Positions 1,171 to 17,475 of a stretch of 64,000 nt of DNA are shown here, in pieces. The position numbers and the translations under genes were made by a program. The stretch's first letter is position 1. The number at the start of each line of letters is the position of its first letter. Location: contig NZ_JRXE01000003.1 of the NCBI RefSeq assembly GCF_001267535.1, positions 154,696-218,695 of the forward strand. Direction: 5' to 3'. This DNA comes from Winslowiella iniecta. GTDB taxonomy: Bacteria > Pseudomonadota > Gammaproteobacteria > Enterobacterales > Enterobacteriaceae. The notes beneath the pieces were generated by a model that did no database searches, was not told where the DNA came from, and worked only from the letters and a program-made list of their open reading frames with translations.

Positions 1171-1224
1171 AACATTAAGAAGATAATGTTAACGAAGCAT
1201 ACACTTAGCCATAAGTATGCTTCG
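1171..1224 (-). terminator. Tandem hairpins ending the methyltransferase-ATPase operon
   Basis: Two inverted repeats lie just past the stop codon of the ATPase gene (1249). The first, 1193-1224, pairs CGAAGCATA with TATGCTTCG and is extended by CTTA/TAAG around a GCCA loop. The second, 1171-1190, pairs AACATTA with TAATGTT and is followed on the minus strand by a run of six T. The second has the form of an AT-rich intrinsic terminator; the first is stronger but lacks an adjacent T-tract. Confidence 0.55.
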
Positions 1225-1248
1225 CTATCTTAAAAAATTAATTATCAA

Positions 1249-2865
1249 CTACTCAGCTTCTTTCTCTTTTATGATTTCAGCACCGTCCATCCGTTCAAAA
1301 AGATAAGAAATTAAACTCAAAACGTTTAGACAATCCAGCTCAGAATACCGCTCAGGCACTAATTTATCCAAAGGCATGTGGGCAGCAGGGTTTCTAAAAG
1401 ACTCAATAACGCCCTGGGAAAGTGAACGTTGTCCACTTTGAATACTCATCCCTGTTTTATTTGAAGTATCACATAACTTTATAACTGGCTCCTTCGGTGA
1501 AAAAACCAAATTAACAAGTTCCGTACCATCAAGAGACAAACCAGTTATTTCACGAATAACTTCACAATATATTTTCGTTCCCTGATCCGCAGCCATTCCA
1601 TATTGTTTATTCGTGTAAAATACTTTTATTCTATCTTTAATCTTATCATTCAAATATCTCCAGTGTAGCAAAGGATACTCTGGTACTAATGTATGCAGCG
1701 CTTCAATTACAGGGCTGTACTTCTCCAGCGCATCCTCTTCACCAAGAAAATCTATAATTTTTGATGCTTGTTGCCTAATATCCTCAGGCATAGTACTCAT
1801 CCATTGATTAGTATCTATACCAGTTGTGACCTCAAGTTCTTTTTCCTTCTTCTCTTTCCGTTTATTTCTCCAATCATTATTAACTTGGTTGATGATTGTT
1901 GAGAGATATTCACGAAGAAGAGCCATTTCTTCATTATCCCAATCAATGGACTGCCGGTTGGTTGAGATGACATCATCATCAAGATTATCAATAAAATCTA
2001 CAGATATCCATCCAGTCAAATATTGAAAGAAATGGCTCGATGTACTATTTGAAAAGAACTCAGGGTTATTAACGAGCTTCCCACGTGAAAACAGCGAAAT
2101 CCCTCTTAAACCAGAATTGGGTCTAATAGGAGTTCGTGAAGTATACAATGTACCTTTCAATTTATTTTTATAAGGGCTGTCATCTTTTACCAAAGAATCA
2201 ACATCCCATTCGAACTGCTGCTCAAAACCACTATACCTACGAGCATTATTTACTGATACAACATGACCATGTTGATCTTTAAGATTTATATTAAAGTTAT
2301 CGTCAACGATAAATATTTTTGAAAGGCTGTTAGCAATCGCTTCAAGATCAAATGGCGACTGTCGTTTAAGTTTGGATAATTTGATCGTCGTCCCATTTGA
2401 TGCATCTGTAGGTTCGTCAGATAACTCTACTTTTGGATTGTATACACCATCAGCATCAAGTAATTCATTCCAATCAAGTATAAATCTATTTCTTTTTCCA
2501 TCCTTAACGGTATCAATAGTTATTTCTTTTGCGAGACCGAATAGAGCTAATTTCCCCAAACCTTTTTTGCCTGTAGCATAACGCCCAAACCGTGGTGTAG
2601 GTTTATCACCATCATGTCGACGTCTATTTCTACCTATAACTAAAAATCGTTGTTGAATATCTGTGGCACTCATCCCTGTGCCATCGTCTTTAATACTAAT
2701 AAATTTGTTACTGCCTACTTCCCAAAAATCGAGAGTAACATTCCCGGAATCGGCATCATAGGCATTTGAAATCAATTCAGCAAGAGCTGGAGGAAGCGTA
2801 GAATACATTTTCACGCCGAGATGTTCTATCGTATGAGGATCAAACTTCATTTCGTAATCAGACAT
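1249..2865 (-). CDS. GHKL ATPase with C-terminal HEPN-like motif (putative defence protein)
   Basis: A 538-residue protein. The N-terminus is a GHKL (Hsp90/MutL/MORC-type) ATPase: N-box ELISNAYDAD (about 30-39), G1 box DDGTGMS (60-66) and G2 lid GKKGLGK (99-105) are all intact. The last ~110 residues resemble the Ymh/TIGR02391 type of domain and contain RNPAAH (491-496), which fits the R-x4-H signature of HEPN ribonucleases. The start codon lies 4 nt after the stop of the cytosine methyltransferase gene, with AGGGAA as ribosome binding site, so the two are translationally linked. GHKL ATPases of the MutL/MORC type are known partners of DNA methylases in prokaryotic restriction-like systems. 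An effector role (nucleic-acid cleavage triggered by foreign DNA) is inference. The gene is AT-rich relative to the backbone. Confidence 0.75.
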   Translation of the reverse strand: MSDYEMKFDPHTIEHLGVKMYSTLPPALAELISNAYDADSGNVTLDFWEVGSNKFISIKDDGTGMSATDIQQRFLVIGRNRRRHDGDKPTPRFGRYATGKKGLGKLALFGLAKEITIDTVKDGKRNRFILDWNELLDADGVYNPKVELSDEPTDASNGTTIKLSKLKRQSPFDLEAIANSLSKIFIVDDNFNINLKDQHGHVVSVNNARRYSGFEQQFEWDVDSLVKDDSPYKNKLKGTLYTSRTPIRPNSGLRGISLFSRGKLVNNPEFFSNSTSSHFFQYLTGWISVDFIDNLDDDVISTNRQSIDWDNEEMALLREYLSTIINQVNNDWRNKRKEKKEKELEVTTGIDTNQWMSTMPEDIRQQASKIIDFLGEEDALEKYSPVIEALHTLVPEYPLLHWRYLNDKIKDRIKVFYTNKQYGMAADQGTKIYCEVIREITGLSLDGTELVNLVFSPKEPVIKLCDTSNKTGMSIQSGQRSLSQGVIESFRNPAAHMPLDKLVPERYSELDCLNVLSLISYLFERMDGAEIIKEKEAE

Positions 2866-2869
2866 GTTG

Positions 2870-3940
2870 TTATTCCCTATTCTGTTTTCCTAATTGATCC
2901 AAATGCTCAATGATCTTAGTTGCATGTGCACAAATAAAAGCAGGTGGCAATGCGTTGCCGATCATTAGCGCAGCAAACTCTCTGCCTCTATCCAGCGAGA
3001 AAGCATAGTTTTTTGGAAATGTTTGAAGCGCGGCGGCCTCACGCAATGTGATAGATCTATCTTGTTCAGGATGCAAAAAACGTCCCTTTGAAGGATTGGT
3101 ACACCCACCAGTAATAGTTGGGGAAACTTTATCCCATGACATTCGTCCATAAACATCTTTATATCCATCTGGACTTTTCAAATGGCAAGGCAGCCATAAC
3201 TGTTTCGGTAAATCTGATCTCGAACCACCATTTTTAGGAATATTTCTTATCATGGCTTTAATTTTATCGGATCTATTCGGGATAAAGTCATGAAGAATAT
3301 CATTACTTTCACCAGGAACAGGAAAATCAGAGATTGCATCTTTTACTGTCTTCGGGGAAGCTACTTTAATAGGCTCATCGATATAACCAAACTTAGATGC
3401 TATAAGGATCATTCTTTTTCTGCGTTGAGGAACGCCATAACAAGCGGTATCTTTAACTTGCAATGTTTTTTCGCCAATCACATATCCACGATCATGTAGT
3501 TCGTCAATGACCTTAATAATTCTCTCATCTTTAGCCAGAGCAGGAACATTCTCGATCATAACTGTTTTAGGTTCAAACGCCCTCACAAATCTCATTAAAT
3601 CAAAAATAAGGTCATTCCTAATATCTTCAACAGAAGTACATTTGTTTCGAGTACGATGAGATGAGAAGCCTTGGCATGGAGGGCAACCGGCTAATAAATC
3701 TAACTCTCCAGGTTTGAACTGCAATTCCTCCATAATTTTTAGAGGGTTTAACGAGCGAATATCAGCTTCATAGAGAATATGATCGGCATGGTTAGTTTTG
3801 TAGGTTCGTGCAGCAACAGCTTCAAGCTCAACACCTGCGATAACTTTAAAGCCAGCTTCTTTTAAACCGCATGTCAACCCACCCGCACCGCAGAATAGGT
3901 CAATTGCTGTGAAATTCATTGATTTGATCCATTTGTTCAT
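2870..3940 (-). CDS. C5-cytosine DNA methyltransferase (Dcm/M.HpaII type)
   Basis: A 356-residue cytosine-5 methyltransferase with its canonical motifs in order: AdoMet-binding DLFCGAGG (motif I, about 14-21), catalytic loop GCPPCQGFS (motif IV, 85-93, nucleophile Cys89), ENV (motif VI, 130-132) and PQRRKR (motif VIII, 171-176). A short target-recognition region follows, then SPTITGG and ALQTFP towards the end. It is the first gene of a two-gene operon with the GHKL ATPase, and probably marks self DNA for that partner. The target sequence cannot be read from the protein. Two starts are possible; the upstream ATG is used here, but Met8 just before the AdoMet domain also has a plausible ribosome binding site. 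No vsr gene or classical restriction endonuclease lies alongside. Confidence 0.88.
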   Translation of the reverse strand: MNKWIKSMNFTAIDLFCGAGGLTCGLKEAGFKVIAGVELEAVAARTYKTNHADHILYEADIRSLNPLKIMEELQFKPGELDLLAGCPPCQGFSSHRTRNKCTSVEDIRNDLIFDLMRFVRAFEPKTVMIENVPALAKDERIIKVIDELHDRGYVIGEKTLQVKDTACYGVPQRRKRMILIASKFGYIDEPIKVASPKTVKDAISDFPVPGESNDILHDFIPNRSDKIKAMIRNIPKNGGSRSDLPKQLWLPCHLKSPDGYKDVYGRMSWDKVSPTITGGCTNPSKGRFLHPEQDRSITLREAAALQTFPKNYAFSLDRGREFAALMIGNALPPAFICAHATKIIEHLDQLGKQNRE

Positions 3941-3960
3941 CCCTTAGTCCAATTTTGACA

Positions 3961-4020
3961 TAGTATCAATTGATTGAAAAGTAAAGAAGAAACTCTGATT
4001 AGTATCAATAGGTTAAAAAT
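3961..4020 (-). promoter_or_regulatory. Direct repeats upstream of the methyltransferase (operator-like)
   Basis: Two copies of TAGTATCAAT followed by a similar TT-AAAA tail begin at 3961 and 4000, 39 bp apart, between the methyltransferase start and the integrase end. On the minus strand the copy nearest the gene overlaps a possible -10 (TACTAT) preceded 17 nt upstream by TTCTTT. Repeats in this position suggest a repressor or autoregulatory site. No controller-protein gene is visible next to it. Confidence 0.4.
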
Positions 4021-4169
4021 CTTTATACATTGATCACTAACTCCATGAATCAGAGAATTAAGCTTCCATTCAGAAAAGCCGCCCCACAACTCCTTTCAGT
4101 GCAATTTTACTGGGTGAGGTATGTTTAACGCACAGTAAGTGCGGCTGCACTATCAAAAATTGCAATTTG

Positions 4170-5531
4170 TTAGCTCGTCCAACTCAAACCGTCTATCACA
4201 TAGCAAATCGTTGATATGGGAAATATATGCAGATAGCGCTTAGTTATTCCCCCGCTCTTCTCATGACCAACTGTCTGCTGGAGATGATGAATGTTACTGA
4301 CCCAGCCAGCCATTGCAGCAGAGCAAACAGAATGACGGAAGCTATGCACAAGCCGGCGTTGTCCAAAGTCGTCAAGGTACGAAATCCCAAGTTGATCTCG
4401 GACATCAGCTAAAACCTTGCCAATCTTTGGCATATTCTTACCCGCCACTGGTGAGAAGATTTTTTCCTTCCACTGACGATTAACAAAATCAAGGAAGCCC
4501 CATTCAATTAACTTGGGATGGATCACAACCTGCCTTGTAGCGTTTTCGGTTTTTCCTTGTCCCCCCTCCGCTATCAACAGATAGTGCCGCTGGCTATCTT
4601 CGTCAAATTTGACCTGTGACTTCTCCAGTTTGGCTATCTCACCTCTTCTGGCTCCAGTATATGCAAGCAGCAATGTGATCCACTTCTCCCATCCATCTGG
4701 CTGCTTGAGTGCCCAACCCACAAATTTACGCATTTCTGCCGCACTGTAAGCACCGAATCTTTCCTTTGTTGGTGCTGCTACAACTCCATCTGTTGGCGAT
4801 TTTTTTAGGATGTCTTTACTGTCAGTTAGGAAAGTTTTGAACAAAGATTTGTATATTTTGAGATGTTTATGAATGGCCTCAGTTCCCACCAATTCATCCG
4901 GTGGAACATCATCACATTCGATCAACTGTTGAATGGTCATTGAACGATATGGCTGAACAACTCGCTTCGGCAGATTTTCCACAATTTCCATCACTTGCTT
5001 TATGTCCTGCTTGGTGATGCTCGCAACATCAGTTTCCCCTCCTAAGACAACAAGCAACACTTCCATAAAACGCTCGTTGGCTTGGGTGATCGCTTTAGTC
5101 CAGTTACGTTCCTTCTCACTTCTGTACATGTTCCATGCTCCAGCAAGAGTTAAAACGTCTGTTGGTTCGGCAACTTTATTTTGTTCCGCATCTACCACGG
5201 GAGCGACCGCATCTCGGCATTCATGCAGTTCTATTGACTGAGTTTGAGCATGACGGTACTCATCATTGAGAAATTGCAGAGCTACCCATTGATCAGCTTG
5301 CTGTTTCAAGCGGTTGGAGAAATTAGTAAGGCGAGCAGAAAAATGATCCGGCTGGATAGCACCGCTTTGCACCATGTGAATTACAGGAGAAGCAAACGAC
5401 ATTATCAAATGAGCTTGGGTGTAGCTGTCTGTTTCAAGTGACTTACGAAAATACGTATTACCCGGCAGACGAAAGCGGACGTAGTAAATGCCGTTGCGTG
5501 TGATGGTGTGACGAATAGTTTTGTGTCCCAT
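4170..5531 (-). CDS. Tyrosine-type site-specific integrase of the island
   Basis: A 453-residue phage/island integrase. The catalytic set can be placed: Arg295 in TGARRGE, His396 and Arg399 in HSFRH, His423 in VGHE and the nucleophile Tyr433 in TKRYLH. Residues 130-260 form the core-binding domain and the N-terminus an arm-binding domain. The ATG is preceded by AAAGAGG-like sequence on the minus strand. The gene lies directly beside the chromosome junction, as island integrases usually do, but the neighbour is a TPP riboswitch rather than a tRNA, which suggests an unusual attachment site. No excisionase gene was recognised. The enzyme would integrate and excise the island carrying the methyltransferase-ATPase pair. 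Confidence 0.9.
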   Translation of the reverse strand: MGHKTIRHTITRNGIYYVRFRLPGNTYFRKSLETDSYTQAHLIMSFASPVIHMVQSGAIQPDHFSARLTNFSNRLKQQADQWVALQFLNDEYRHAQTQSIELHECRDAVAPVVDAEQNKVAEPTDVLTLAGAWNMYRSEKERNWTKAITQANERFMEVLLVVLGGETDVASITKQDIKQVMEIVENLPKRVVQPYRSMTIQQLIECDDVPPDELVGTEAIHKHLKIYKSLFKTFLTDSKDILKKSPTDGVVAAPTKERFGAYSAAEMRKFVGWALKQPDGWEKWITLLLAYTGARRGEIAKLEKSQVKFDEDSQRHYLLIAEGGQGKTENATRQVVIHPKLIEWGFLDFVNRQWKEKIFSPVAGKNMPKIGKVLADVRDQLGISYLDDFGQRRLVHSFRHSVCSAAMAGWVSNIHHLQQTVGHEKSGGITKRYLHIFPISTICYVIDGLSWTS

Positions 5532-5618
5532 TTGGTGAGCCTCTTTGAGATACGGCTGAACAAAACGGGACAGGAATTGATAGTAATCATTTGATTTTAA
5601 TCTGAATAATTGCCATGG

Positions 5619-5700
5619 CTACGCTGGCATTATCCAGTTCAGGTTCAACGGGTAATTCTCAGCCGGTCTCTGATGAAGAGACGGCACCCCGAGTCATTGA
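5619..5700 (-). ncRNA. TPP riboswitch (THI element), 3' edge replaced by island DNA
   Basis: Read on the minus strand the sequence has every conserved thiamine pyrophosphate aptamer block: GACTCGGGGTGCC, a P3 arm GTCTCT/AGAGAC, GGCTGAGA, ACCCGTTGAACCTGAAC, then CTGGATAATGCCAGCGTAG. In the E. coli thiM aptamer the last block continues GGGA, closing P4, and then provides the 3' strand of P1. Here it continues CCATGGCAATT, so P4 loses a pair and the usual P1 partner is missing. The next gene downstream is the integrase, about 90 nt away, instead of a thiamine gene. In E. coli thiM lies next to the rcn genes, so the riboswitch probably belonged to thiM. Whether it still binds TPP is doubtful. Confidence 0.88.
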
Positions 5701-5717
5701 TCAATCACTAAATTGTC

Positions 5718-7464: not shown

Positions 7465-7661
7465 CAAAAATCCCAATAGCCGGGCCGGACAGAGTTAAAT
7501 GGTAAGCATTGTCGTGCGCCGAGTAAAAGAAAATCCAGAAATCAGTGTCGAAAGTTTACTGAAATGCGCGGCGCACGGATTGCAGCGGCAGAAAACAATT
7601 CATTTCCCTGAGCTATTATAGTGGTGAGTTTGATAAGTCGCTGCATATTCAGGAGAAAGCC

Positions 7662-8087
7662 GTGCATATTCGCCCTTTTACCGAAACTGACCGTCCGTTT
7701 TTACGTACCCTGTTTTTAGCCGCGCGCAAAGCCAGCTGGCACTGGCTGGACAGCAACGACTGGCGACTGGAAGATTTTGACGCTATTACGCTGGGGGAAA
7801 CGATTCTGGTCGCGGAACGGGATGGCCATCGCCTCGGTTTTGCTGCACTACTGGATAACGATAATTTCCTGCACAGCTTATTTATTGATCCGCAGGCGCA
7901 GCGTCAGGGCATCGGCAGCGCGTTACTGCATGCGGTGCAACAGCGCTTTAGTTCAACCGGCGCATTAAAGTGTCTGACGGCGAATCAGGCGGCGTGCCAG
8001 TTTTATCTGCACCATGGCTGGAAGGTAATTTCGCGCGGCGAGAGTCCACAGGGAGAGTATTTGTTAATGCATTTTGTCTTGGCATAA
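7662..8087 (+). CDS. GNAT-family N-acetyltransferase
   Basis: A 141-residue single-domain acetyltransferase. The acetyl-CoA binding motif A is recognisable as LFIDPQAQRQGIGSALL (about 73-89), and the C-terminus has the usual FYLHHGWK strand-turn. The start is GTG, preceded by AGGAGA. Substrate is unknown; the fold acts on small amines, amino acids or protein N-termini. It is transcribed away from mltB and towards mrp, from which it is separated by a strong hairpin, so it forms a single-gene unit. Confidence 0.8.
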   Translation: MHIRPFTETDRPFLRTLFLAARKASWHWLDSNDWRLEDFDAITLGETILVAERDGHRLGFAALLDNDNFLHSLFIDPQAQRQGIGSALLHAVQQRFSSTGALKCLTANQAACQFYLHHGWKVISRGESPQGEYLLMHFVLA

Positions 8088-9411: not shown

Positions 9412-11445
9412 ATGACTCAAGTCGCGAAAAAAATTTTGGTAACGTGCGCACTGCCGTACGCCAACGGTTCTATCCATCTCGGCCACATGCTCGAGCATAT
9501 CCAGGCAGATATTTGGGTCCGTTACCAGCGAATGCGCGGCAATCAGGCATATTTCATCTGTGCAGATGACGCGCACGGCACGCCAATCATGCTGAAAGCT
9601 CAGCAGCTGGGCATTGCACCGGAACAGATGATCGCCGAAATGAGTCAGGAACATCAGACTGATTTTGCTGGCTTCAACATCAGCTATGACAACTATCACT
9701 CGACGCACAGCGACGAAAACCGCGAGCTGTCATCGTTGATCTATGGCCGTTTGAAAGAAAATGGTTTTATTAAAAATCGCACCATTTCACAGCTGTACGA
9801 TCCGGAAAAAGGCATGTTCCTGCCCGATCGTTTCGTTAAAGGCACCTGCCCGAAATGTAAAGCCGCCGATCAATATGGCGATAACTGTGAAGTGTGCAGT
9901 GCGACCTACAGCCCAACCGAACTGATTGATCCGAAGTCGGTGATTTCCGGTGCCACGCCAGTAATGCGTGACTCTGAGCACTTCTTCTTTGATCTGCCAG
10001 AATTCAGTGCGATGTTGCAGGCGTGGACCCGCTCCGGTGCGCTGCAGGAGCAGGTGGCGAATAAAATGCAGGAGTGGTTCGAATCCGGCCTGCAACAGTG
10101 GGATATCTCCCGTGATGCGCCGTATTTCGGCTTTGAAATCCCGGATGCGCCGGGCAAATACTTTTACGTCTGGCTGGATGCACCTATTGGTTATATGGGT
10201 TCGTTTAAGAATCTGTGTGATAAACGTGGCGACATCGATTTTGACGCGTTCTGGAATAAAGATTCAGATGCCGATCTGTATCACTTTATCGGCAAAGATA
10301 TCGTCTATTTCCACAGCCTGTTCTGGCCAGCGATGCTGGAAGGCAGCAATTTCCGCAAGCCAACCAACCTGTTTGTTCACGGCTATGTGACGGTGAATGG
10401 TGCCAAGATGTCGAAATCGCGCGGCACCTTTATCAAAGCCAGCACCTGGTTGCAGCATCTGGATGCCGACAGCCTGCGTTACTACTACGCGGCGAAACTC
10501 TCTTCGCGCATTGATGATATCGACCTGAACCTGGAAGATTTTGTCCAGCGTGTTAACGCCGATATCGTTAATAAAGTGGTTAACCTGGCCTCGCGTAATG
10601 CCGGCTTTATCAACAAACGTTTCGGCGGCAAACTGGCCGACGAACTGGCCGATCCGGCGCTGTATAAAACCTTTACCGATGCGGCAACCAGCATTGGTGA
10701 AGCGTGGAACAGCCGCGAGTTCAGCCGCGCTATCCGTGAGATTATGGCGCTGGCCGACCTGGCAAACCGTTATGTCGACGAGCAGGCACCGTGGGTGGTG
10801 GCGAAACAGGAAGGCCGCGATGCTGACCTGCAAGCGATCTGCTCCATGGGCATCAATATGTTCCGCGTACTGATGACCTGGCTGAAACCGGTTGTGCCAT
10901 CGCTGGCAGAGCGTGTTGAAGCCTTCCTGAATGTCGAACTGAGCTGGGAAGGTATTCATCAGCCGCTGCTGAGCCACGATATTGCCGCGTTTAAAGCGCT
11001 GTACAGCCGTATCGAAATGGACAAAGTTAACGGCCTGATTGAAGCGTCAAAAGAGGACGCAGCGGCGGCCGCTAAACCGGCGCTGACCGGCCCACTGGCG
11101 GACGACCCGATTCAGGACACTATCACTTTTGACGATTTCGCCAAAGTGGATATGCGTATTGCGCTGATTCAGAAAGCGGAATTGGTGGACGGTTCCGACA
11201 AGCTGCTGCGTCTGTCGCTGGATTTAGGCGGTGAAACCCGTCAGGTGTTCTCCGGTATTCGCGCGGCTTATCCTGACCCAGCCGTACTGGAAGGTCGTCT
11301 GACCGTGATGGTTGCTAACCTGGCACCACGCAAAATGCGCTTTGGCATCTCGGAAGGGATGGTGATGGCAGCGGGTCCTGGCGGTAAGGATATTTTCCTG
11401 CTTAGCCCGGACAGCGGCGCACAGCCGGGTCAGCAGGTTAAGTAA
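9412..11445 (+). CDS. metG: Methionyl-tRNA synthetase
   Basis: A 677-residue class I aminoacyl-tRNA synthetase charging tRNA-Met. Visible signatures: HLGH (22-25), the zinc knuckle CPKC...CEVC (about 145-162), KMSKS in the catalytic domain, and a C-terminal tRNA-binding/dimerisation domain beginning near [10 protein letters not shown]. Length equals the E. coli enzyme (677). The gene is divergent from mrp and is followed by a paired-hairpin repeat. Confidence 0.97.
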
Positions 11446-11456
11446 GATTGCTGTAT

Positions 11457-11532
11457 GGGCGGCGTTTATCGCCGCCCGTGCCGGATGTTTGCACTCTGCC
11501 TGTCATCAGGACGGGAGCCGAAAGCGGCTCCC
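11457..11532. repeat. Paired-hairpin repeat, copy B
   Basis: Hairpin GGGCGGCG/CGCCGCCC at 11457-11477 and hairpin GGGAGCCG-AAAG-CGGCTCCC at 11513-11532, separated by a short linker containing CTGTCATCAGGAC. It lies between metG and yohJ and may terminate metG transcription. Confidence 0.75.
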
Positions 11533-11569
11533 CTACTGGTATTCTGCGCCGCCCGCTCAGGAGCTTGTT

Positions 11570-11947
11570 ATGCTCAGCGTGTTATCTGTCAGCTGGCGTT
11601 ATCTTCGCGCCTTTATCATTATTTATCTCTGCTTATATGCCGGTAATGGCATCTCATCCCTGCTGCCGCTGACGATTCCGGGCAGTATCATTGGCATGCT
11701 GCTGCTGTTCTCGCTGCTGGCATTGCAGATTCTGCCGGTGCATTGGGTTCAGCCCGGTAGCCATCTGCTGATTCGCTATATGGCGTTGCTGTTTGTCCCC
11801 ATCAGCGTCGGCATTATGAGCTATACCGATATCCTTAGCGCCCAGTTTGGCCCGATTGTGGTTTCCTGCGTAGTCAGCACGCTGATGGTGCTGGTGATTG
11901 TCGGTGTCACCGCCCAACGGATGCACAAGGGGAACGCCGATGAGTGA
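11570..11947 (+). CDS. yohJ: LrgA/CidA-like membrane protein YohJ
   Basis: A 125-residue inner-membrane protein with four hydrophobic segments, of the LrgA (holin-like) family; matches E. coli YohJ across its length, including [16 protein letters not shown] and [12 protein letters not shown]. The ATG at 11570 with AGGAG upstream is chosen over upstream starts that would run through the repeat. It overlaps yohK by 8 bases, so the two are co-translated. In other bacteria the LrgA/LrgB pair modulates murein hydrolase activity and metabolite (pyruvate) transport; the role here is inferred. Confidence 0.9.
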
Positions 11948-12632
11948 TATCTGGTGGTCACTGCCGCTGACGCTTGGCGTATTCTTTGCCTCACGGCTGC
12001 TGGCGGCGAAGGTTAAAATTTCCCTGCTGAACCCGCTGCTGGTCTCGATGGCGGTGATTATTCCGCTACTGTTACTGATTAATATGCCCTACGCGCGCTA
12101 CTTTCAGGGCAGCGAAATACTGAATCATCTGCTGCAACCGGCGGTGGTGGCGCTGGCCGTGCCGCTGTATGAACAGATGCATCAAATCCGTGCCCGCTGG
12201 AAGTCAATCATCAGCGTCTGCTTTATCGGCAGCCTGACGGCGATGATCTCCGGCACCGCTATCGCCCTGTGGCTCGGCGCAACACCGGAAATCGCCGCGA
12301 CGATTCTGCCGAAATCGGTGACTACACCAATTGCCATGGCGGTTTCCGACTCGCAGCACGGGATTCCTGCCATTAGCGCCATCTGCGTATTACTGGCGGG
12401 GGTATTAGGTGCAGTTTTCGGGCATATGCTGCTCAGGCTGCTGCGGGTGCGCAGTAAAGCCGCACGTGGACTCGCTATCGGCAACGCCTCGCATGCGCTG
12501 GGTACTGCACGCTGCGCCGAGCTTGATTTTCAGGAAGGCGCGTTCAGCTCACTGGCTCTGGTGATTTGCGGCATTATCACTTCACTGCTGGCACCCTTTA
12601 TCTTCCCGATTTTGTTGCACCTGCTGCGTTAA
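11940..12632 (+). CDS. yohK: LrgB-like membrane protein YohK
   Basis: A 230-residue multi-pass inner-membrane protein of the LrgB family, partner of YohJ. The conserved stretch [17 protein letters not shown] and the [12 protein letters not shown] motif are present. The start codon lies inside the last codons of yohJ (ATGAGTGA overlap). E. coli has the same yohJ-yohK-cdd order. Confidence 0.92.
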
Positions 12633-12686
12633 AACTTGCGAGAGATCTCGCAATTCAGCATCAACTTTCATAGATTGCATTGATAG

Positions 12687-12702
12687 AGCGACATAGATCA
12701 CA
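12687..12702 (+). promoter_or_regulatory. Probable CRP site upstream of cdd
   Basis: AGCGA-CATAGA-TCACA fits TGTGA-N6-TCACA with a perfect right half. It lies about 60-75 bp before the cdd start. In E. coli cdd is activated by cAMP-CRP and repressed by CytR, so a CRP site here is expected. No CytR site was defined. Confidence 0.5.
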
Positions 12703-12761
12703 TATAACCTCCTGATTGCACCGTAAAATCCGTTGCCAACAACGCTAATGAGAGGCACTCA

Positions 12762-13652
12762 ATGCATCCACGTTTTCAATCCGCTTTTGCCGACCTGTCG
12801 CCCGAATTACAGTCTGCACTGAAGCCGATCCTTGATGCTGAAGATTTCAGCGCCCGTTTTAGCCCGGAACAGATTGCGGCAATCAAACAACAAACCGCAC
12901 TGGATGAAGATGCGCTGGCCTTCGCGCTGCTGCCGTTAGCGGCCGCCTGTGCGCTGGCACCGCTGTCGGACTTTAATGTCGGCGCGGTGGCGCGTGGCAA
13001 AAGCGGTAGCTGGTATTTTGGTGCCAATATGGAGTTTGCTGGCGCCACCATGCAGCAAACCGTGCATGCCGAGCAAAGCGCGGTGACGCACGCCTGGCTG
13101 AGTGGCGAGCTGGCGCTGGAAGCCATCACCGTCAACTACTCGCCTTGCGGCCACTGTCGCCAGTTTATGAATGAGCTGAACAGCGGCACCGCACTGCGCA
13201 TCTATTTACCTGGCCGCCAGCCGGCGACGCTGGGCGACTATCTGCCGTATGCCTTTGGTCCGCGCGATCTGGCGATTGAAACCCTGCTGCTCGATCCTGT
13301 CGATCATGGCTATCACCTCAGCGGCGACGCGCTGGAACAGCAGGCAATTAACGCCGCCAGTCACAGCCATGCGCCTTACAGCAATGCGCACAGCGGCGTG
13401 GCGCTGGAAAGTGCCAGCGGGCAGATTTATGCCGGTCGCTATGCCGAAAATGCCGCCTTCAACCCCAGCCTGCCGCCATTACAGGCCGCACTGATTCTGT
13501 TGAATATGCACGGCGAAAGCTGCACGCAGATTACGCGTGCCGTGCTGGCCGAAAGTCCCGACGGCAAACTGATTCAGCGCCAGGCGACCGAAGCCACGCT
13601 TCAGGCGTTAGGCTGCCAGCATATTCGCTGCGTTGAGTTGCAAAAACCGTAA
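12762..13652 (+). CDS. cdd: Cytidine deaminase
   Basis: A 296-residue homodimeric zinc enzyme that converts cytidine and deoxycytidine to uridine and deoxyuridine in pyrimidine salvage. The zinc/catalytic motifs are HAEQSA (His and Glu) and PCGHC (two Cys). The long two-domain form, with a second degenerate deaminase domain, is that of E. coli Cdd (294). It follows yohK, as in E. coli, with its own promoter region containing a CRP-like site. Confidence 0.95.
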
Positions 13653-13681
13653 GCATTCCCGCAATACCTCGAGAAAGATCG

Positions 13682-13713
13682 CAGCTTTTGTAATCTGTTA
13701 TTAACAAAAGCTG
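13682..13713 (+). terminator. Hairpin after cdd
   Basis: CAGCTTTTGT pairs with ACAAAAGCTG over 10 bp around a 12-nt loop, about 30 bases after the cdd stop; a run of seven T follows some bases later (13724-13731). It could be the cdd terminator or part of the maeA leader. Confidence 0.45.
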
Positions 13714-13779
13714 TACTTCTGCGCTTTTTTTCATAGGATCGTGGGCACACAATGTCATTGAGCCAGAGGCTGTTTTTAA

Positions 13780-15477
13780 ATGGAACTCGAGTACGAGAGT
13801 AAAAGACCGTTATATATTCCTTACGCCGGACCTATTCTGTTGGAATTTCCGCTGCTGAATAAAGGCAGCGCCTTCTCAGTTGAAGAACGTAATGATTTCA
13901 ATCTCCGCGGCCTGTTACCCGAAACCGTAGAGACCATCGAAGAGCAGGCCGAACGCGCCTGGCGTCAGTTCCAGGACTTCAAAAACAATAACGATAAACA
14001 CGTCTACCTGCGCAATATTCAGGACACTAACGAAACCCTGTTCTACCGGCTGCTGGATAATCATCTCGAAGAGATGATGCCGATTATCTACACCCCGACG
14101 GTCGGTGCTGCATGTGAACACTTCTCCGAAATCTATCGTCGCGCCCGCGGTCTGTTTATTTCTTATCCGAACCGCAACAATATCGAGGATATGCTGCAAA
14201 ACGCCACCAAACAAAACGTAAAAGTGATTGTGGTGACGGACGGCGAACGTATTCTCGGCCTCGGCGACCAGGGGATCGGCGGCATGGGCATTCCCATTGG
14301 TAAGCTGTCGCTGTACACCGCCTGTGGCGGCATTAGCCCGGCCTACACCCTGCCGGTAGTACTGGATGTTGGTACCAATAACCAGCAGCTGCTGAATGAC
14401 CCGTTGTATATGGGCTGGCGTCATCCGCGCATTACCGGCGAAGAGTACGATGCCTTCGTTAACGAATTTATCCAGGCAGTGAAAAGCCGCTGGCCAAATG
14501 TGCTGTTGCAGTTTGAAGATTTCGCCCAGAAAAATGCGATGCCATTGCTGGAGCGCTATCGCGATGAAGTCTGCTGCTTTAACGACGATATTCAGGGTAC
14601 CGCTGCGGTCACGCTGGGTACGCTGATTGCCGCCAGCCGCGCGGCCGGCAGCAAACTACGCGATCAGAATGTGGTCTTCCTCGGTGCCGGTTCCGCCGGT
14701 TGTGGAATTGCCGAGCAGATTATCGCCCAGATGAAATCGGAAGGACTGAGCGACGAAGAAGCTCGCGCCCGCGTGTTTATGGTCGACCGCTTCGGTCTGT
14801 TGACCGACAAACTGCCTAACCTGCTTAATTTCCAGAGCAAGCTGGTGCAGAAAAGCGAAAACCTCAGCAAATGGGATGTCAGCACTGATTCACTGTCGCT
14901 GCTGGATGTGGTGCGCAATGCGCAGCCGGATATCCTGATTGGCGTTTCGGGTCAGCCGGGTCTGTTTAGCGAAGAGATTATTCGCGAGATGCACAAGCAC
15001 TGCCCGCGCCCGATTGTGATGCCGCTGTCCAACCCAACCTCACGGGTTGAAGCCACGCCGCAGGATATTCTTGCCTGGACCGATGGCGCAGCGCTGGTCG
15101 CAACCGGTAGCCCGTTCTCGCCGGTAAGCTGGAAAGGCGTCACCTATCCGATTGCCCAGTGTAATAACTCCTATATCTTCCCTGGCATCGGCCTTGGTGT
15201 GGTCGCTTCCGGTGCAACTCGCGTCACCGACAGCATGCTGATGGCGGCAAGCCGTACGCTGGCTGAATGCTCTCCACTGGCGAATGATGGCGTCGGCGCA
15301 GTATTGCCGGAAATCAAAGATATCCAGGGCGTATCGAAACTGATCGCCATGGCGGTGGGTAAAGCCGCTCAGCTGGCTGGCGTCGCGGTAGTCACGTCAG
15401 AAGATGTGCTGTCGAAATCGATCGCTAACAACTTCTGGCTGCCGCAATACCGTAACTACCGTCGCACGTCGATTTAA
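13780..15477 (+). CDS. maeA: NAD-dependent malic enzyme (malate dehydrogenase, decarboxylating)
   Basis: A 565-residue enzyme that oxidatively decarboxylates malate to pyruvate. It aligns along its full length with E. coli MaeA (565), starting with [15 protein letters not shown]. Key parts visible: YTPTVG, the divalent-metal/malate-binding region FEDFAQKNA with [11 protein letters not shown], the Rossmann NAD site [13 protein letters not shown], and SNPTS. In E. coli maeA lies elsewhere; here it sits between cdd and sanA. Confidence 0.95.
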
Positions 15478-15496
15478 TCCCCTGATCCGGGCCTGA

Positions 15497-16333
<837 letters not shown>

Positions 16334-16372
16334 CAGGGACACGGGGATATTGCCAGGGGCGAGGTTATTTCT

Positions 16373-16451
16373 GGAGCCGTTTTCGGCTCCCCTACTGATG
16401 GCATAAAGAGTGCTAACCCTCGGCAGGGGCGGCGAAAACACCGCCCCTGCC
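16373..16451. repeat. Paired-hairpin repeat, copy C
   Basis: GGAGCCG-TTTT-CGGCTCC at 16373-16390, linker with CTGATGGCATAAAGAGTGCTAACC, then an 11-bp stem GGCAGGGGCGG/CCGCCCCTGCC at 16422-16451. It fills the gap between the convergent sanA and mglC genes and probably terminates both. Confidence 0.78.
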
Positions 16452-16464
16452 AATAGCGCAATGA

Positions 16465-17475
16465 TTATTTTTTACGAGAATACTTCAGCGAATCCAGCGC
16501 CACGGCGAAAATAATGATGCCGCCCTTGATGATATACTGCCAGTAAGGGTTAACGCCGATGTAGGTCAGACCGTAGTTAATTACCGTAAAGATAATCACC
16601 CCGGTCACCACACCTGCCACGGTACCGACACCACCGGCAAAGGAAACGCCCCCCACCACGCAGGCAGCAATCGCATCCAGCTCATACATAAAGCCGAGGT
16701 TATTGGTGGCACTGCCGATACGCCCGGCTTCCAGCATCCCGCCGAAAGCGTAAAACACTCCCGACAGCGCATAGATCATAATCAGGTTAAGCGGCACATT
16801 CACGCCAGACACTTTCGCCGCTTCCGGGTTACCGCCGATGGCAAAAATGTTTTTACCGAAGCGGGTTTTATTCCACAAAATCCAGACGAAAATAATCGCG
16901 ATAATCGCATAGAAGGTGATGTAAGAGAGCTTAAAGTCACCGAATCGCAGGAAGCCCTGAGCAAAGGTCGAGAAGCCCGAATCAAAACCAGCAATCGGTG
17001 AAGCACCAACATAATCGTAATACAGCGAGTTAACGCCATAGACGATAATCATGGTGCCCAGTGTGGTAATAAACGGCGTGACCTTCAGGTAAGCAATAAT
17101 AATCCCGTTAATCAGGCCAATAAAAGCACCGATAAGACAAACGGTCAGGATAACCAACGGAATCGGAATGGTATCGATGCCCGGGAAAACCTTATTCACG
17201 TTGTCCATCGCCTGCAACATAGTGGCCGCCACCACCGCCGCAAGGCCAACCTGACGCCCTGCCGAGAGGTCAGTCCCTTGCGTAACAATCAGACCGGCAA
17301 CACCCAGTGCAATAATCACGCGTACTGAAGATTGCGTCAGAATATTACTCAGGTTCATTAAACTGAGGAAAGTGGGATCCTGGAAAATAATAATTGCCAG
17401 CAGAACCAGCAAGACGACGTAGATACCGCCTTCTTTTAACCAGGTGAGCGCATTTTTCTTATTAACAGCTTTCAT
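16465..17475 (-). CDS. mglC: Galactose/methyl-galactoside ABC importer permease
   Basis: A 336-residue inner-membrane permease of the BPD_transp_2 (RbsC-like) family, forming the homodimeric channel of the D-galactose/methyl-beta-galactoside importer. It has about ten hydrophobic helices; the cytoplasmic loop FAIGGNPEAAKVSGV is the usual ATPase-contact segment. Last gene of mglBAC, 19 bases after mglA. Confidence 0.95.
   Translation of the reverse strand: MKAVNKKNALTWLKEGGIYVVLLVLLAIIIFQDPTFLSLMNLSNILTQSSVRVIIALGVAGLIVTQGTDLSAGRQVGLAAVVAATMLQAMDNVNKVFPGIDTIPIPLVILTVCLIGAFIGLINGIIIAYLKVTPFITTLGTMIIVYGVNSLYYDYVGASPIAGFDSGFSTFAQGFLRFGDFKLSYITFYAIIAIIFVWILWNKTRFGKNIFAIGGNPEAAKVSGVNVPLNLIMIYALSGVFYAFGGMLEAGRIGSATNNLGFMYELDAIAACVVGGVSFAGGVGTVAGVVTGVIIFTVINYGLTYIGVNPYWQYIIKGGIIIFAVALDSLKYSRKK

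Follow-up and report, generated by a model that had tools for sequence, protein, structure and literature searches.

Can a DNA methylase and a single ATPase protein form a restriction-modification (R-M) system that acts by cleaving RNA? The question is raised by two adjoining genes of Winslowiella iniecta, one for a 5-methylcytosine (m5C) methyltransferase and one for a GHKL ATPase fused to a HEPN domain, which lie within the 64,000-nucleotide stretch that we analysed (contig NZ_JRXE01000003.1, positions 154,696 to 218,695; hereafter the window). We propose that they may form a two-gene R-M-like module: a HEPN ribonuclease (RNase) would have taken the place of the DNA-cutting end found in BbrUII/HgiDII-type enzymes, and a MORC-type clamp would sense unmodified DNA; we hold this reading about equally likely to be right or wrong. 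Papers cited here by PMC number are represented by excerpts.

The gene pair and its conservation

The two genes and the parts of the second are as follows (window coordinates).

2870..3940, reverse strand: m5C DNA methyltransferase, 356 residues (P0002), first gene; PF00145, intact motifs, ratio of nonsynonymous to synonymous substitution rates (dN/dS) 0.055
1249..2865, reverse strand: GHKL-ATPase/S5 and HEPN fusion protein, 538 residues (P0001), second gene; HATPase_c_3, PF09509, TIGR02391, NF050001
1831..2865, reverse strand: residues 1-345, GHKL ATPase and S5 module with a MORC-like fold, common to the BbrUII/HgiDII restriction enzymes
1654..1830, reverse strand: residues 346-404, helical linker (family signature PEYPxxHWR; column conservation)
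1252..1653, reverse strand: residues 405-538, HEPN (Ymh/TIGR02391) domain, candidate effector (profiles)
1378..1395, reverse strand: codons of the predicted RNase motif R491-N492-P493-A494-A495-H496 (column conservation)

The methylase gene comes first in the direction of transcription, and four bases separate it from the ATPase-HEPN gene. P0002 matches the DNA_methylase family at 5.7e-53 (Pfam), so that the pair has the methyltransferase gene that a Type II R-M system would need, and has intact FCGAGG, GCPPCQG, ENVP, QRRKR and GNALPP motifs, which we take to be the key motifs of the m5C methyltransferase family. In P0001, residues 24-136 match HATPase_c_3 (9.4e-19, Pfam), and the GHKL residues E30, N34, D60, G62, G64, K101 and G104 are near-invariant among relatives. 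A preliminary description of this DNA had reported a complete m5C methyltransferase and a 538-residue protein with GHKL boxes and an RNPAAH motif, four bases apart in an AT-rich island with an integrase; coordinates, profiles and G+C content confirm this.

We collected relatives by scanning genome contigs with the C-terminal 283 residues of three relatives (alignment A2) and two short patterns, without selecting for a methylase. The scan identified 83 relatives among 132 candidates (E-values are relative to these candidates), of which 80, the cap set for the survey, were kept (L034-L113). With three relatives from viral contigs, the window, and L001, L015 and L016, the survey comprises 87 loci, or 82 non-redundant ones after clustering at 95% identity; 78 rows have the columns of the HEPN motif, and four (L001, L040, L106 and L109) lack that region. 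Genes were called as simple open reading frames (ORFs). Judging by record titles, many of them of metagenome assemblies, the relatives span Pseudomonadota, Bacteroidota, Patescibacteria groups, Planctomycetota, Verrucomicrobiota, Woesearchaeota, Pacearchaeota and others, and the fusion is present in both Bacteria and Archaea. Close kin are rare near the host: the full-length protein occurs in 2 of 393 other genomes sampled from the host's order (L015 and L016) and in none of 368 other genomes sampled from its class (E 1e-10). A first scan of viral contigs returned no relative and a second returned three; phage records gave a single match, covering residues 1-371. In E. coli only the integrase side was matched, in 1 of 5426 genomes.

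In 79 of the 87 loci and 74 of the 82 non-redundant ones, the ATPase-HEPN gene has an m5C methylase no more than 150 bp away on the same strand (overlaps allowed). This holds for 21 of 325 other ORFs of at least 300 residues in the same loci, some of them next to the pair's own methylase. On these counts we reject the idea that two mobile genes came to lie together by chance. Among the eight loci without such a methylase, three (L039, L049 and L104) start at most 60 bases from a contig end and one (L090) is a partial frame near an end. The methylase is farther off in three more (370 bp upstream in L097, 621 bp upstream in L100, and 505 bp away on the other strand in L067), and none is near the gene in L063. 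The association of methylase and ATPase put forward in the preliminary description is thus a conserved one, and a link of the ATPase to unrelated genes did not emerge. The methylase is upstream in 61 of the 74 pairs and downstream in 13; five of the loci counted as downstream have a methylase on both sides and would raise the upstream count to 66. Gene order can change without loss of adjacency, a point in favour of a functional link. The five loci, all from Bacteroidales (L081, L083, L092, L096 and L112), have an m5C methylase on each side of the ATPase-HEPN gene, followed by large genes, and are possibly composite defence loci.

The two proteins have also diverged together. Distances between methylases correlate with those between ATPase-HEPN proteins (r 0.694, n = 69 loci; maximum of 2000 permutations, 0.10; r = 0.505 with the other methylase partner taken in the five Bacteroidales loci), which shows that the pair is kept together and is by itself no proof of function. 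A comparison of stretches of the ATPase with the methylase recognition region gave no clear answer (partial correlations at most 0.26, at residues 281-300, with the five Bacteroidales loci mispaired in the run). Against the Atlantibacter hermannii copy, dN/dS is 0.048 for the ATPase-HEPN gene, 0.055 for its HEPN part alone and 0.055 for the methylase, values that mark strong purifying selection on both genes. This selection, together with the occurrence of the same fusion beside a methylase in dozens of other genomes, puts the pair far beyond chance.

The recognition region of the methylase can be aligned across phyla. With borders at residues 190-290, all 70 family members align, versus 11 of 28 control methylases; borders at 236-290 gave 70 family and 10 control methylases, a narrower choice (196-250) gave 39 of 70 versus 3 of 28, and other borders, with the five Bacteroidales loci mispaired, gave 64 of 70 versus 15 of 33. 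This test mixes the target region with a neighbouring part taken as motif IX. The family may therefore keep to one narrow target class, a suggestion that we treat as a lead only, and CCGG as the target, from a predicted gonococcal specificity, is a weak lead.

The HEPN end and candidate effectors

The C-terminus of P0001 matches two HEPN profiles well above their curated cut-offs: PF09509 (Hypoth_Ymh) at residues 405-525 (1.7e-19; 70.3 bits against a cut-off of 25, Pfam) and TIGR02391 at residues 405-527 (2.6e-31; 108.3 bits against 39.45, NCBIfam). The PADLOC models PD-Lambda-3_B (2.3e-15) and Aga_HEPN (1.7e-12) match there as well, and in a structure model of P0001 most of 405-526 is helical. 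Anantharaman et al. (2013, PMC3710099) counted PF09509 (Ymh) among the families of the HEPN superfamily and gave the active-site signature as Rx4-6H, mostly with N, D or H after the R. R491-N492...H496 fits this definition, including the polar residue after R, and the HEPN-like end that the preliminary description had proposed is upheld by both profiles and motif. Across the 78 rows the H is invariant, and the first position is R in 74 and K in four, followed by N in 71, H in four and C in three; R/K-[NHC]-x3-4-H is thus found in all 78 and is the most conserved catalytic-type motif of the C-terminus. The relatives with K (L103, L104, L110 and L111) read K-N-P-x3-H versus the usual R-N-P-x2-H. 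L103, L110 and L111 group with L107 and L108, which have R and the same extra residue, in a clade of five (100/100), and L103 and L111 match PF09509. In the linker, P395 is present in 78 of 78 rows, and H401, W402 and R403 in 94-97% of them.

P0001 has no match to PD-(D/E)XK, HNH, GIY-YIG or PLD families (Pfam and NCBIfam, E 1). A hidden classical nuclease was rejected on this ground, and the PADLOC REase_II matches fall on the GHKL part (5.3e-31, best stretch 3-143; 1.6e-26, 2-222). No other nuclease was found in the window's islet either. The lack of a classical nuclease noted in the preliminary description therefore holds for both protein and islet. These results bear on an obvious alternative, an ordinary Type II R-M pair, with an ATPase protein that cleaves unmethylated DNA and a HEPN domain that either helps in dimerisation or DNA binding or has turned into a DNase. 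The absence of a nuclease match and the conservation of the HEPN motif speak against such a pair. So does chemistry: HEPN RNases are described as metal-independent, with catalysis proposed to proceed via the RNA 2'-OH (PMC3710099), so that DNA cutting by this domain would be unusual. Two points, taken up below, favour a Type II pair, namely the kinship of the N-terminal module with restriction enzymes (to which the REase_II matches also point) and a report on gonococcal R genes; a third is the presence of Vsr near part of the pairs. We consider this alternative unlikely.

Vsr is a DNA mismatch endonuclease that repairs deaminated 5-methylcytosine, and its gene is typical of m5C R-M systems. 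Of the 87 loci, 26 have it no farther than 150 bp from the pair (in two of them on the opposite strand; PF03852 matched in 4 of 4 tested). As a general effector it is ruled out by that count and by its absence from the window.

If the effector is not in P0001, it might be sought next door. Fifteen of 73 pairs have no operonic neighbour. Of the 162 operonic neighbours, 70 were scanned with Pfam and PADLOC; methylases, Vsr, most short ORFs and some farther ORFs were left aside. No Type II restriction-enzyme family recurs among the 70, and among the families listed (25 of 73 families and 25 of 305, complete for Pfam families in at least two of the 70), HindVP, HinP1I and DpnI-type enzymes occur once each. 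ResIII (Type III-type restriction subunits) was found in two, Type III methylase models in four and N6/N4 methylases in six, which places some loci inside larger R-M or defence regions.

Such regions would suit a second alternative, a back-up toxin like PrrC or RloC that guards a separate R-M system and is triggered when phages inhibit it, as proposed in 2013. PMC3710099 draws this analogy, several Bacteroidales loci have further methylases and large genes downstream, and the Type III and N6/N4 families just listed point the same way. Against this stand the 15 pairs with no operonic neighbour and the lack of a recurring Type II enzyme. In the islet of A. hermannii, moreover, which among ORFs of at least 80 residues (antisense ORFs aside) shows only an integrase, the methylase, the ATPase-HEPN gene and a short helix-turn-helix gene, there is nothing to guard except the methylase. 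The PrrC and RloC anticodon nucleases share with P0001 an ATPase-linked HEPN RNase (predicted here) associated with R-M (PMC3710099), whereas their ATPase is ABC-type and ours is GHKL, with no ABC match in P0001 (E 1) and no separate restriction enzyme. We regard a guarding role as improbable.

The GHKL-S5 module and known systems

The N-terminal module of P0001 is that of the BbrUII/HgiDII restriction enzymes. Their model NF050001 matches residues 4-374 over model positions 1-398 (1.5e-67), and the whole-protein score of 228.7 bits is below the curated cut-off of 550. Every one of the 56 rows of alignment A3, which comprises the window protein plus 55 of the remaining 86 loci and none of the K-motif members, is matched by NF050001 as well as by TIGR02391. 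Four proteins above the cut-off (L003, L004, L017 and L018; 676-833 bits) have a conserved D...ExK stretch in the C-terminal half, a PD-(D/E)XK-like region, and SduA_C matches three of the four weakly (best 3.5e-5, under the Pfam cut-off). P0001 has its HEPN domain where these enzymes have the PD-(D/E)XK-like region. Like P0001, L003 adjoins a full-length m5C methylase; for L017 and L018, parts of a methylase were seen where the DNA examined ends (for L018 on the opposite strand), and the DNA examined around L004 showed none. M.HgiDII recognises GTCGAC (PMC5867850).

In a structure search the ATPase fold of the P0001 model was closest to MORC3/MORC2; the predicted structure of the BbrUII relative L017 (mean pLDDT, a per-residue confidence score, 59) was too poor for use. 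The preliminary description had placed the ATPase with the MutL/MORC type, which agrees with the fold, and had missed the kinship with BbrUII/HgiDII. In a tree of the ATPase module, BbrUII types group with two other long-branched rows (98/98); many forks are open, and we therefore do not claim the HEPN class as one clade. The simplest reading of the sequences is one sensor module with exchanged effector ends, and the direction of that exchange is one that we infer. A third version of the module was observed at L020:178-2085(-), where a 635-residue protein beside an m5C methylase (2078-3148(-)) matches the BbrUII model only over residues 8-421; its C-terminus has no nuclease match (Pfam, E 0.5) and is possibly a further effector type.

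The preliminary description knew of no named system with this pair, and in the open-licence literature we too found no study of a stand-alone methylase with a GHKL-HEPN protein. That statement needs amending for the fusion, since paraMORC-Ymh fusions in R-M neighbourhoods were reported in 2013 and likened to PrrC/RloC (Anantharaman et al., PMC3710099). P0001 belongs with them: both have a GHKL ATPase and a C-terminal Ymh HEPN domain, a predicted RNase, among R-M genes. The excerpts of that paper give the fusion a few sentences and a table row, whereas here it forms a pair with a stand-alone methylase and without a separate restriction enzyme. What is new is the stand-alone pair, its spread and the exchanged effector; the fusion itself has been known since 2013. 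Earlier still, paraMORC GHKL ATPases were described in R-M systems, some fused to nuclease-type or TIR ends (Iyer et al. 2008, PMC2292703). The GHKL-Shedu protein VcSduA (paraMORC3) also joins a GHKL ATPase to a C-terminal nuclease; it acts in phage defence, and mutating either part abolished protection (PMC12137116). Its effector is a DUF4263 DNase, in contrast to the HEPN domain here, and SduA_C/DUF4263 is unmatched in P0001 (Pfam, E 1).

The islet and a possible mechanism

Two further features of the window place the pair in a mobile setting.

4170..5531, reverse strand: tyrosine integrase of the islet, 453 residues (PF00589 Phage_integrase, 9e-8)
5599..5701, reverse strand: thiamine pyrophosphate (TPP) riboswitch copy at the islet edge (RF00059, 56.4 bits)

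G+C content is 36-38% over the pair and 36-41% in 2-kb windows over 1-5 kb, versus 47-57% in every window from 5001 on. Positions 1194-5129 (integrase, methylase and ATPase) are 86% identical to the A. hermannii islet (L034), which is flanked by two TPP copies (4466-4561 and 9706-9802(+), about 5.2 kb apart); its integrase ORF is shorter than the window's (380 versus 453 residues). For the window, a second and better-scoring TPP copy (74.3 bits) lies outside, at L117:10734-10829(-), about 12.8 kb from the first, and the gene just downstream of it is presumed from its sequence to be thiM. Since both genomes have an integrase stretch bounded by TPP copies, the pair appears to be carried along by an integrase islet that inserts at a TPP riboswitch. 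The aptamer upstream of the presumed thiM appears to be the integration site, rebuilt at one end upon insertion. The two islets, with related integrases and each bounded by two TPP copies (window/L117 and L034), differ in size. The larger element of the window includes a gene of the phage major capsid protein E type (L117:12290-13318(-), PF03864, 8.1e-15; neighbours 11171-16917) and a DUF6945 gene, and looks like a phage satellite or prophage remnant beside R-M-like cargo.

A mobile setting in two Enterobacterales genomes would also suit an addiction module that keeps the islet and is not mainly for phage defence: the methylase would be the antidote, and its loss would leave newly replicated sites unmethylated and trigger the RNase. 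The methylase-first order of most pairs (61 of 74, or 66 counting loci with one on each side) points the same way. Such a module is compatible with defence, however, and some loci adjoin other defence-type genes; we give addiction as the main role only a slim chance.

We return to the R-M-like module with a HEPN effector, which could work in four steps: (i) the methylase would mark its own site throughout the host genome; (ii) the GHKL-S5 part, as a MORC/MutL-like, ATP-driven dimerising clamp, would close on DNA with an unmodified site, or modified DNA would keep the clamp inactive; (iii) closure would join two HEPN domains into an active RNase; and (iv) RNA cleavage would stop the invaded cell or the invader, so that loss of the methylase or entry of unmodified DNA would be punished at the RNA level.

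Several observations weigh against this proposal. The joint divergence of the two proteins could also arise from a pair that merely travels together, and four of the 78 motif rows have K in place of R. A structure search, whose list was taken up by GHKL matches, did not confirm the HEPN fold, and the PDB gave no sequence match to the HEPN part by itself. The four steps, the pairing of HEPN domains, the RNA target and a role in phage defence are all things that we infer from sequence. A further point comes from gonococci, in which deleting the CCGG R-M operons is reported to abolish DNA cuts at CCGG (2026 preprint, PMC12871193). If the R gene of that preprint were the intact form of the gonococcal relative of P0001, the effector would cut DNA; this assignment of CCGG cutting to R genes of operons that perhaps include a relative is the report that favours an ordinary Type II pair.

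The one gonococcal record examined, NZ_CP119142, has a single place with a P0001 relative (query P0005, E up to 1), which contains two stop codons. At this place (L001:4984-7626) the methylase and the ATPase-HEPN relative are both broken by a frame change and stops, and the neighbouring Vsr frame (7632-8054) is intact. The record has seven more methylase places, and the five of them that were examined had no P0001 relative nearby. NgoAXIII, one of the NgoAXIII/NgoAXIV CCGG systems (PMC12871193, PMC6789123), has been described as a Vsr with a methylase remnant (PMC6789123), a description that the broken methylase and Vsr of NZ_CP119142 fit. The relative in this record is broken; the preprint names its R genes RM1R1 and RM2R, and a relative of P0001 may be among them (PMC12871193).

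Taken more broadly, the pair may represent an R-M family of both Bacteria and Archaea in which RNA cleavage serves as 'restriction', with a MORC-type clamp reading missing methylation and firing a HEPN RNase, and with DNA-cutting BbrUII/HgiDII kin related through effector exchange; we hold this tentatively, at somewhat less than an even chance. If it is true, R-M would not be bound to DNA cutting, as the same methylation sensor would be wired to an RNase, and 'destroy the invader' would become 'stop the cell'. What eukaryotic MORC proteins do was described in 2008 as poorly understood (PMC2292703), and the pair would offer a simple bacterial model for a MORC/MutL-like clamp that reads DNA methylation. 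R-M, HEPN abortive systems and MORC-type ATPases would also come together in a single small module of two genes.

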